From contig JAEUUV010000055.1 of assembly GCA_016787285.1 (NCBI GenBank), forward strand, positions 1-57,065: a DNA stretch of 57,065 bases, given 5' to 3'. This DNA comes from Saprospiraceae bacterium. Its GTDB lineage: Bacteria; Bacteroidota; Bacteroidia; Chitinophagales; Saprospiraceae. Shown here piece after piece: positions 6,172 through 45,633 of this stretch. Position numbers and translations under genes: made by a program. The number at the start of each line of letters is the position of its first letter. The stretch's first letter is position 1. The notes below the pieces were generated by a model. That model worked only from the letters and a program-made list of their open reading frames with translations, searched no databases and was not told the DNA's origin.

Positions 6172-6227
6172 CACCCAAAAACAATCCTCCAGGGCGCCAA
6201 TGCACCCTGGAGGATTGTTTTTGGGTG
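6172..6227. terminator. Perfect 23-bp hairpin between two minus-strand genes
   Basis: Arms 6172-6194 and 6205-6227 are perfectly complementary over 23 bp with a 10-nt loop. It lies 79 nt beyond the stop of the helical protein gene and before the small FN3-like gene. The arms end in A5/T5 runs inside the stem rather than a free T tract, so it may terminate, attenuate or protect RNA ends. The terminator label is inference. Confidence 0.55.
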
Positions 6228-9074: not shown

Positions 9075-9150
9075 AAAAAACAGCGGTGGCGCCATTGTTT
9101 GGGAAATGAAAACTGTTCTTTCCCTTACCGTGGCGCCACCTGTTTTTTTT
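9075..9150 (+). terminator. Rho-independent terminator of the FN3/T9SS gene
   Basis: The arms AAAAACAG-CG-GTGGCGCCA (9075-9094) and TGGCGCCACCTGTTTTT (9131-9147) pair with a 2-nt bulge and are followed by further T (eight in all, 9143-9150). The loop is about 36 nt. The element starts 16 nt after the stop codon at 9059. Confidence 0.85.
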
Positions 9151-22971: not shown

Positions 22972-23008
22972 ATAAACCTTCCAGGTTTTCAAAACCTGGA
23001 AGGTTTAT
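22972..23008. repeat. Perfect 18-bp palindrome, copy 1
   Basis: Arms 22972-22989 (ATAAACCTTCCAGGTTTT) and 22991-23008 are exactly complementary around a single C. It lies between the alpha-amylase and GloVer genes. A second copy is at 50075-50101. It behaves like a dispersed REP-type palindrome and may also terminate the amylase transcript. Confidence 0.8.
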
Positions 23009-43722: not shown

Positions 43723-43730
43723 CAAAAATA
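43723..43730 (-). promoter_or_regulatory. -7 box TATTTTTG for the pterin dehydratase
   Basis: The plus strand reads CAAAAATA. Exact TAnnTTTG match on the minus strand 21 nt before the ATG at 43701. Confidence 0.6.
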
Positions 43731-43784: not shown

Positions 43785-44395
43785 GTGTCACAGAGGCTCG
43801 CAGAGTTTGAGAGGACACAGAGTTTTTGTCATTCCGTAGGAAACCGTGTCAAGCATCGTGAGGTTGTGTCCCATTCATGCTTGTCAAAGTTGTACCCCGG
43901 CTCTTTGATGTTTTTTCTGCCGCGATTGGTGTTATTACCTATACCATACGGGCCTCTTTTGCCGGGCTTTCAGGTACTTAGCCCTGAAAGGGCGCTATCC
44001 TGCAAGGCAGGGTGCAGCCCTGCCTCCGATGAGCCGCCGTGGGTAAGCCCTGAAAGGGCGTAATAGCACACTCCGCACATCCTATTACGCCCTTTCAGGG
44101 CTTCCGATTCATATCCGGCCTTCTCACGCGGGGCCATGCCCCGCGTTGGCCGATGGCGCCCCTTCGGGGCTAAGTACCTGAAAGCCCTGCAGAAGAACTG
44201 TCCATACCGCAAATTTAAACACCAGGCACGTTGGGAAAAACGATTCATGAAACCGTAAAAAATGCCCAAGAGCCGGGGTACAACTTTGGATAAGTATTGC
44301 CAGGATACAACTTAACGATGCTCGACAAAACCGTCCGCTCTAAATTGGTAACAAAAACTCTGTGCGTTCTTAAACTCTGTGATTCTCTGTGACAC
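43785..44395. repeat. Nested long imperfect palindrome (about 610 bp)
   Basis: Four inverted-repeat pairs share one centre. The outer pair is 43785-43829 with 44351-44395 (45 bp, 38 matching). The second pair is 43885-43905 with 44268-44288 (21 bp, perfect). The third pair is 43964-43984 with 44167-44187 (21 bp, perfect). The inner pair is 44045-44065 with 44083-44103 (21 bp, perfect, 17-nt loop). The spacers between arms are also recognisably mirrored in part, so each half is a diverged inverse copy of the other. No transposase is present. It may be a MITE/REP-type element or a stack of such insertions. An inner part ('AGCCCTGAAAGGGCG', then 'CTATCCTGCAAGGCAGGG') recurs at 45466-45510. Confidence 0.8.
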
Positions 44396-44434: not shown

Positions 44435-44442
44435 TACCTTTG
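44435..44442 (+). promoter_or_regulatory. -7 box TACCTTTG for tryptophan 2,3-dioxygenase
   Basis: Exact TAnnTTTG match 60 nt before the ATG at 44503. It lies inside the longer ORF that begins at 44389, which argues for the downstream start. No clear -33 box is present at standard spacing. Confidence 0.55.
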
Positions 44443-44502: not shown

Positions 44503-45420
44503 ATGCAAGACTTGTTGGAGCAGATCGAACGGAAATACCACCAGCTCGGCCAAAACCCGGAAACCTATTTGCAGGGACTCCTGCTGAGCAAACCCGTGAA
44601 CTATTGGGAGTACATTCAGGTGGATACCCTGCTTTCCCTGCAAAAAACCCGCACCGACTTCAAGGACGAGACCATTTTCATCGTGTACCACCAGATCACC
44701 GAACTGGTGCTGAAACTGATCCGTCACGAACTGGAACAACTCACCACAGGCGACCTTCCCGACCCGGCAGTTTTTTCCGAAAAAATGCACCGACTTGTGC
44801 GGTATACCCGCCTGCTGAGCACCTCGTTCAGCATTATGAACCAGGGCATGCGCTACGAGGACTACAACCAGTTTCGCCTGGCCCTGGCGCCGGCCAGCGG
44901 ATTCCAGTCGGCACAGTTCCGCTACATCGAATTGCATTGCACTCCGTTGGATCATTTGATTCCTCCGCACCGCCGCGACAAGGTGCCGGACAACTGTCCG
45001 CTTGAAGATCAATTCCAGTACCTGTACTGGCAGGATGCCGGCTACGACCGCGCCACCGGCGCCAAATCGCTCACCCTGCTCCAGTTTGAGGAGCGTTATC
45101 TGGAGTCGTTTGTGGCGCTGGCGCGCAAAATGCAAGCCGACAACCTGTCCGCACGCTACCTTGCACTGGAGCAGCAGGGCCGCAGCACCGACGATCTCCG
45201 ATCGGTGCTCCGTACGTTCGACTACACGTTCAACGTCTCATGGCCGCTGGTGCACCTGCAAACAGCCCACACGTACCTCGGCGGCGGCCAACACGAAACG
45301 GCGGCCACCGGCGGAAGCCACTGGGAAAAATACCTGCACCCCAAGTTCCAGAAGCGCATCTTTTTCCCCAGCCTGTGGTCGGAGGAAGAACGGGCGGCAT
45401 GGGGAGATGTGCATGGATAA
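44503..45420 (+). CDS. kynA: Tryptophan 2,3-dioxygenase
   Basis: This is a 305-residue haem enzyme that oxidises L-tryptophan to N-formylkynurenine, the first step of the kynurenine pathway. Recognisable TDO blocks are 'NYWEYIQVDTLLSLQ', 'FIVYHQITELVLKLIRHEL' (distal His), 'GMRYEDYNQFRLALAPASGF' followed by 'QSAQFRYIELHC' (substrate carboxylate Arg), 'WPLVHLQTAHTYLGG' (proximal His region) and 'ATGGSHWEKYLHP' (TGGS loop). The upstream promoter box and the family-like N-terminus favour ATG 44503 over 44389. Palindromic repeats flank the gene on both sides. No kynureninase or clear kynB is adjacent. Confidence 0.93.
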   Translation: MQDLLEQIERKYHQLGQNPETYLQGLLLSKPVNYWEYIQVDTLLSLQKTRTDFKDETIFIVYHQITELVLKLIRHELEQLTTGDLPDPAVFSEKMHRLVRYTRLLSTSFSIMNQGMRYEDYNQFRLALAPASGFQSAQFRYIELHCTPLDHLIPPHRRDKVPDNCPLEDQFQYLYWQDAGYDRATGAKSLTLLQFEERYLESFVALARKMQADNLSARYLALEQQGRSTDDLRSVLRTFDYTFNVSWPLVHLQTAHTYLGGGQHETAATGGSHWEKYLHPKFQKRIFFPSLWSEEERAAWGDVHG

Positions 45421-45434
45421 AGAAAAAACGGGGT

Positions 45435-45633
45435 ACACACATCTTTCTCCTGATCTTCAGGAGTTTAGCCCTGAAAGGGCGCTATCCTGCAAGGCAGGGT
45501 GCAGCCCTGCCCACAGCAGGGGTGCCTCAGGTAAGCCCTGAAGGGGCGGCATAGCACATCCCTTGCGGCGTATTACGCCCTTTCAGGGCTAAATTCCTGA
45601 AGATCAGGAGAAGGAAGTGTGCCTGCCGAAGGG
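45435..45633. repeat. Palindromic MITE/REP-like element downstream of TDO
   Basis: The terminal arms 45445-45481 and 45576-45612 are complementary at 36 of 37 positions, with further weaker pairing outward (ACACAC with GTGTGC). The interior shares the 'AGCCCTGAAAGGGCG…CTATCCTGCAAGGCAGGG' segment with the larger palindrome at 43785-44395. An 11-bp direct repeat AAAAACGGGGT flanks it (45424-45434 and 45634-45644), which looks like a target-site duplication. It encodes no protein. Confidence 0.75.

Follow-up and report, generated by a model that had tools for sequence, protein, structure and literature searches.

The 611-bp palindrome between the divergent genes for pterin dehydratase and a dioxygenase is very probably the product of non-coding palindromic repeats that inserted one after another, the later ones near the centre of the earlier. 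It is built from repeat families, of which A was in place before B; target duplications flank B, and four relatives have a short, palindrome-free spacer between the same two genes. In the proposed course of events, a palindrome of ~124 bp (A), with a REP-like core (F) at its centre, would first have entered the spacer, presumably as a unit and with F as an older insertion within it. Element B would next have inserted into F, duplicating 6 bp, and B encloses a T-type shell, inside which Acido-Lenti-1-like hairpins form a dyad about a central stem. Dyad and T shell probably joined B by insertion, the alternative being that the second copy of B, in contig C256, reflects a deletion. The elements would have been moved by an enzyme encoded elsewhere, for which hairpin tips may be preferred targets. 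Concentric nesting with a readable order is a natural record of palindromes used as targets by palindromes.

The palindrome and its rank in the genome

The original prediction of a long palindrome at 43785..44395 of the window (the whole 57,065-nt stretch of DNA analysed) is confirmed by arm search, self-alignment and shuffle scores: the segment is a true long inverted repeat. Aligned end to end with its own reverse complement, the 611 bp match at 65% over 647 columns; the self-complement score is 146 bits, where 200 dinucleotide shuffles reach no more than 37.4, and the predicted DNA fold has an energy of -179.7 kcal/mol (z -21.8, 20 shuffles). Perfect arm pairs of about 21 bp are present as claimed (Table 1), and two side hairpins (~44006-44024 and ~44126-44146) are additional to the arms listed previously. 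The arms recur in the genome and the spacers are mirrored; unique arms without mirrored spacers, named beforehand as the result that would speak against the prediction, were not obtained.

Instability is generally expected of long palindromes. This 611-bp inverted repeat is present in an assembled bacterial contig, part of a draft genome of 345 contigs. A census of 629,115 bp of that genome (the window and stretches of 60 other contigs) counted 76 palindromes, among which 22 are self-paired and no shorter than 100 bp; a different overlap rule gave 74 rows, and a shuffled copy gave 4 palindromes, of at most 30 bp. The 611-bp palindrome is the longest self-paired one in this sample, the runner-up measuring 253 bp, and also across the samples of its own genome and of the relatives G035 and G034. 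Palindrome load differs between these genomes: G035 has 19 palindromes in 393,126 bp, none reaching 100 bp, and G034 has 110 in 370,895 bp, 66 of them of at least 100 bp and the longest of 378 bp. Small palindromes contained in large ones in G034 (30 centred and 4 off-centre, in 9 palindromes) were dropped as proof of nesting, the same signal being given by arm-length variation within one family. Gene orientation around palindromes was likewise set aside, the crude open-reading-frame method having misclassified the window's own locus. Further palindromes of the window lie at 22972-23008, 6172-6227 and 9075-9148, the first belonging to the AACCTTCCAGGTTTT family, which also adjoins a RAYT-like gene.

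Table 1. Features of the palindrome and its surroundings (positions in the window; R1, half-unit model described in the text)
Feature	Position	Strand	Remarks
TATTTTTG, promoter-like box of pterin dehydratase gene	43723..43730	-	outside palindrome
Outer arm pair	43785-43829/44351-44395		45 nt, 84%
Family-A left half	43785..43846	+	ends within central F REP-like core (F from 43828)
Target duplication AAACCG, 6 bp	43841..43846 and 44328..44333	+	flanks of B
Element B	43847..44327	+	481 bp, TGTC...GACA ends, inserted in F core
B arm pair	left 43885-43916 / right 44257-44288	+	32 nt, 88% paired
Third arm pair	43955-44023/44128-44196		69 nt, 78%
T-shell left arm	43957..43979	+	flank complementarity, 0 of 300 shuffles
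Left Acido-Lenti-1-like half-element	43980..44024	-	RF01687 19.2 bits (gathering 37); R1 50.8 bits
Central stem, AAGCCCTGAAAGGGCGTAATAG + reverse complement	44045..44103	.	15-nt loop, 100% complementary
Innermost arm pair	44045-44066/44082-44103		22 nt, 100%
Right Acido-Lenti-1-like half-element	44127..44171	+	RF01687 27.0 bits (gathering 37); R1 58.4 bits; one of the 30 rows of R1
T-shell right arm	44172..44209	+	match to C69 element; flank complementarity
Family-A right half	44328..44395	+	begins with right target duplication AAACCG
TACCTTTG, promoter-like box of dioxygenase gene	44435..44442	+	outside palindrome

The spacer and its counterparts in relatives

The pterin dehydratase gene starts on the minus strand (start codon 43699-43701) and the dioxygenase gene at 44503, where the relatives place it; the listed open reading frame of the latter begins at a GTG at 44389, inside the A palindrome. 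The spacer is 801 bp long, and subtraction of the 611 bp leaves 190 bp. The same divergent gene pair is separated by 174, 176, 167 and 204 bp in the relatives G035, G019, G011 and G002, whose dioxygenases are 72-74% identical and in which the palindrome is absent. TAnnTTTG boxes, which we take to be the Bacteroidetes -7 element, are similarly placed in three of these four relatives. A search with the whole region matched 3 of 60 genomes, namely its own and, within the dyad part alone, G014 and G026. At the thresholds used, A and B were undetected in 59 relatives, weak copies possibly having been missed because in some genomes only the best-looking candidates were scored; under the same restriction the A arm was found in its own genome alone among the 60. 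Public genome contigs gave 0 matches to the A arm, in a set to which its own genome may not belong.

These observations bear on the view that the palindrome regulates the two divergent genes as a structured DNA or RNA element and is kept by selection. It ends 39 nt ahead of the promoter-like box of the dioxygenase gene and its foldability is extreme, as would befit such an element; its absence from four relatives with the same gene pair, the failure to detect A or B across the relatives searched and the poor pairing of the window's A arms nevertheless make this role highly improbable.

Families A and F

Searching its own genome with the whole palindrome region returned 130 matches, and the filtered loci comprise 26 distinct copies of A with the window's included: 24 of 113-127 bp, one of 180 bp and the 611-bp one of the window. 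A length of 123-125 bp is found in 17 of the 25 other copies. The loop of 24 aligned copies contains an F-like core. An extra copy of 67 bp (L195, 1972-2038), below the length limit of the A filter, has the A arms and lacks the F core, which would fit either an insertion of F into the middle of A or a loss of F from this copy. No target duplication was established for A itself.

The A hairpin covaries. In the 24 copies entered into the test (the 180-bp and window copies were excluded), 93.8% of cells are paired, the cells changed on both sides number 49 compared with 13.2 +/- 3.1 after shuffling (0 of 500), and the pairs changed on both sides number 12 compared with 7.6 (5 of 500). Across all 26 copies the arms fit their own partner at 0.894 and an exchanged partner at 0.814 (0 of 50,000 permutations). 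Such covariation marks hairpins that are kept up, whether by selection or by correction through template switching, with scores of this kind inflated by the relatedness of the copies; template switching is reportedly treated in one paper (PMC8794818) as maintaining hairpins. For the window's copy the arm fit is poor (0.82), and 18 of the 25 other right arms suit its left arm better than does its own right arm. The earlier suggestion of selection on the arms therefore finds no support at this locus, and local selection is not needed as an explanation.

The F core (GTCATTCCGNAGGAATCNGTC) has 65 matches in its own genome at up to 2 mismatches, compared with 0 for a reversed-pattern control. It occurs alone, as inverted pairs and within A, and is thus like a REP in being a short palindrome present in many copies; in the window, where it matches at 43828-43848, F is split by B. 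Of the tags typical of REPs (GTAG or CGTC), GTAG was read at the inner end of F in some copies (C256, C294), rather than counted over all 65.

Element B and the order of insertion

When B is excised from the window, the flanks join to an A palindrome of 124 bp whose alignment score per base to the nearest copy is 0.85; none of 200 random stretches scores above 0.47. The own-genome DNA search yielded one B copy besides the window's. This copy (C256) measures 265 bp between the same ends, lacks the dyad and carries the duplication AATCCG on both sides. Its position, within an F pair, corresponds to that of the window's B in F, and the flanks that were read contain no A arms. A 6-bp target duplication, as expected of a MITE, accordingly accompanies 2 of 2 B copies. 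Given that the duplications are alike within and unlike between the copies, the simplest reading is that B inserted twice independently; the preference of B for F is drawn from two events, or from one if the copies share an origin. The dyad-less copy may represent the state before the dyad or a deletion.

The idea of several insertions inside each other, one option of the original prediction, is in this way supported for A and B: nested insertion holds because separate copies of both exist elsewhere, B has its duplication, excision restores an A of 124 bp and the spacer is short in four relatives. Fold-back replication or template switching would instead have copied neighbouring sequence in inverted form, the palindrome growing in place without transposition. 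The covariation of A arms within copies is what hairpin-templated correction would give, and the fold-back process explains upkeep of the arms. It does not explain their origin, for which we consider it unlikely: the layers are dispersed families, 6-bp duplications flank B in both copies, the second of which sits at another site with a duplication of its own, and the excised A has a common family length. That the whole is a single composite mobile element, all layers moving as a unit, is barely conceivable. T shell and dyad do recur together, by reading at 7 other loci (one with a single shell arm), but 25 of 26 A copies are without B and a B without the dyad exists; a composite of A plus B is already contradicted by these A-only copies and the dyad-less B.

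The search for a mover

No transposase linked to, or beside, A, F, B or the dyad was found among the Y1 and RAYT families searched. A RAYT transposase with the same ends, proposed earlier as a check, did not turn up in nine Y1_Tnp loci and the RAYT-like locus C151, which contain no A, F, B or dyad motifs; as a flank of a RAYT gene the F core was seen in 0 of the 9 loci, several loci being cut by contig ends, and in 0 cases at C151. The 6-bp duplication left by B suggests that its mover may be another, DDE-type enzyme. Six RAYT-like genes are present in the own genome (C30, C184, C192 with an internal stop, C158, C200 and C151), and in the stretches read palindromes of other families adjoin them, which fits the TIRYT idea as set out in PMC3733652. 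At C151 (L238, G000:C151), a palindrome GACCTTCCAGGTTT...AAACCTGGAAGGTC flanks the RAYT-like gene and has another copy inside the 237-aa open reading frame of that gene, in which no stop is reported.

There are analogies to known systems. Non-coding sequence, inverted ends and a target duplication define a MITE; B shows all three and differs in that two copies of it were detected. The REP/REPIN/BIME repeats with their RAYT/TIRYT enzymes, as described in PMC3733652, resemble the present repeats as short extragenic palindromes that occur singly or paired in inverted orientation. The RAYT-like genes with adjoining palindromes in this genome add to the likeness, as may the GTAG read at the inner end of F in some pairs. 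The differences are the lack of a RAYT gene beside the A, F, B and dyad motifs, the 6-bp duplication of B and the stacking of several families. Palindrome nesting itself is not new, since REP dimers inserted within long palindromes figure in Di Nocera 2013 (PMC3733652). Unlinked target palindromes are missing there for two of three examples, whereas free A without B and free F are found here. Insertion sequences that target REPs (Tobes and Pareja 2006, PMC1525189) share with our case a palindromic repeat as specific insertion target, the difference being that what inserts here is a non-coding palindrome in its own right. Outside supplementary files and most subscription papers, the literature yielded no nested palindromes or MITEs of this kind.

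The T shell and the dyad

The innermost layers (43957-44209) match the C69 element at 83%. In the dyad, the central stem is flanked on each side first by a side hairpin and then by an outer hairpin, and the Acido-Lenti-1 model spans one side hairpin plus one outer hairpin (seen on L283). The two half-elements of the window face apart, and both score under the 37-bit cut-off of RF01687; no Rfam RNA reaches its gathering score in the window. Matches to mir-606, MIR8622 and rne-II, all below cut-off, were taken as chance matches of palindromes. Other loci of the genome resemble the dyad centre, the better matches standing at 71-87%. A genome search for RF01687, with strict filters by which weak matches are lost, gave 25 own-genome matches with E of at most 0.01, of which 5 exceed the cut-off; it matched 23 of 60 genomes (own included; 8 of 60 over cut-off) and 1 of 14 control genomes (0 of 14 over cut-off). 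In 30 half-element rows, chosen as hits of the RF01687 model, two consecutive hairpins are paired in 92.5% of cells, and changes on both sides number 33 compared with 13.2 +/- 2.3 in shuffles (0 of 500), in line with conserved pairing; the pairs changed on both sides (5 against 3.9; 76 of 500) and the further pair types (10 against 9.8; 307 of 500) show no excess over shuffles. A regular expression for the half-element matched 0 of 146 halves.

The 25 own-genome matches divide into 16 solo units and 9 in 8 dyad loci (C266 truncated). Dyads of this genome lie inside palindromes and solo units outside them. The 70-nt flanks are complementary in 14 of 15 dyads (13 at 0 of 300 shuffles, C149 at 1 of 300; C310 not), a set that includes 45436-45621 with its single half-unit and excludes the truncated C266 and C88; 0 of 16 solo units reach this level, the best (L407) standing at 8 of 300. 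By reading, the dyad flanks belong to shells of two unrelated types, T (TATGCACACA...TTTCAGG) and M (GGGTTGAGCGGGTT units). The dyad may either enter palindromes or move along with its shell; since T copies have both in common, joint travel is favoured within a type. No precise empty site for the dyad was seen within B. At 45428-45621, directly after the dioxygenase gene, the window has another T-shell element, which contains a central stem and an Acido-Lenti-1-like half; the gene is hence bracketed by two T-shell elements.

The dyad in other phyla

The central-stem pattern was found in at least 114 stretches of public genome contigs, of which 80 loci form the cross-phylum set. The titles of these 80 name Bacteroidales, Prevotellaceae, Flavobacterium, Planctomycetota, Hydrogenedentota, Sumerlaeia, Verrucomicrobia, Acidobacteria, Desulfobacteraceae and others. 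With one stem counted per locus and 5 of the 80 stems excluded as cut by contig ends, half-units facing apart stand on both sides of 52 of 75 stems, on one side of 18 and on neither side of 5. The count was made with model R1 (30 rows, 9 of them from five of the counted loci, which match by construction), on hits at E up to about 0.008 and with hits on the central stem itself omitted; it supersedes a test for hairpins alone in the flanks of dyads (42 of 73, compared with 10 of 240 places taken at random). L296 has an additional half-unit in opposite orientation. The dyad is patchy, not universal, given that the exact 17-mer TAAGCCCTGAAAGGGCG occurs in 5 of 296 sampled genomes of the phylum, the window's included. 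No RAYT gene was found beside the dyads of the 80 loci among open frames of at least 80 codons, a profile of four own-genome proteins giving no match up to E 10 and recovering 6 of 6 RAYT-like loci as positive control.

Acido-Lenti-1 (RF01687; Weinberg 2010, PMC2864571) is catalogued as a bacterial RNA of several phyla with function unassigned. The window copies share its two-hairpin layout and core sequence; they differ from it in scoring under the gathering cut-off and in their arrangement, as opposite halves of an inverted dyad with the central stem between them. A 2026 paper (PMC13298647) takes Acido-Lenti-1 downstream of protease genes as possible regulation, and none of the published passages at hand terms it a palindromic repeat or dyad half. 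We offer tentatively, as a possibility more doubtful than not, that Acido-Lenti-1 is not an sRNA gene and instead makes up one half of a mobile, REP-like DNA hairpin found across phyla. Own-genome dyads sit at the centres of other palindromes and solo units do not, which would point to a mode of transposition that recognises hairpin tips and stacks palindromes concentrically. The innermost layer suggests that an Rfam "sRNA" family may be repeat DNA, and the nature of Acido-Lenti-1 becomes directly testable.

Among the solo Acido-Lenti-1 units of the own genome, L402, L411 and L413 seem to start shortly past an apparent stop codon. Dozens of near-identical solo units are present in G034 and G027 (L373, L374, L395, L396, L414, L418), in the loci read mostly near GTGAGAGG-like or GGCAA-type tandem arrays, and a dyad of G016 (L378, L417) lies between inverted arrays.
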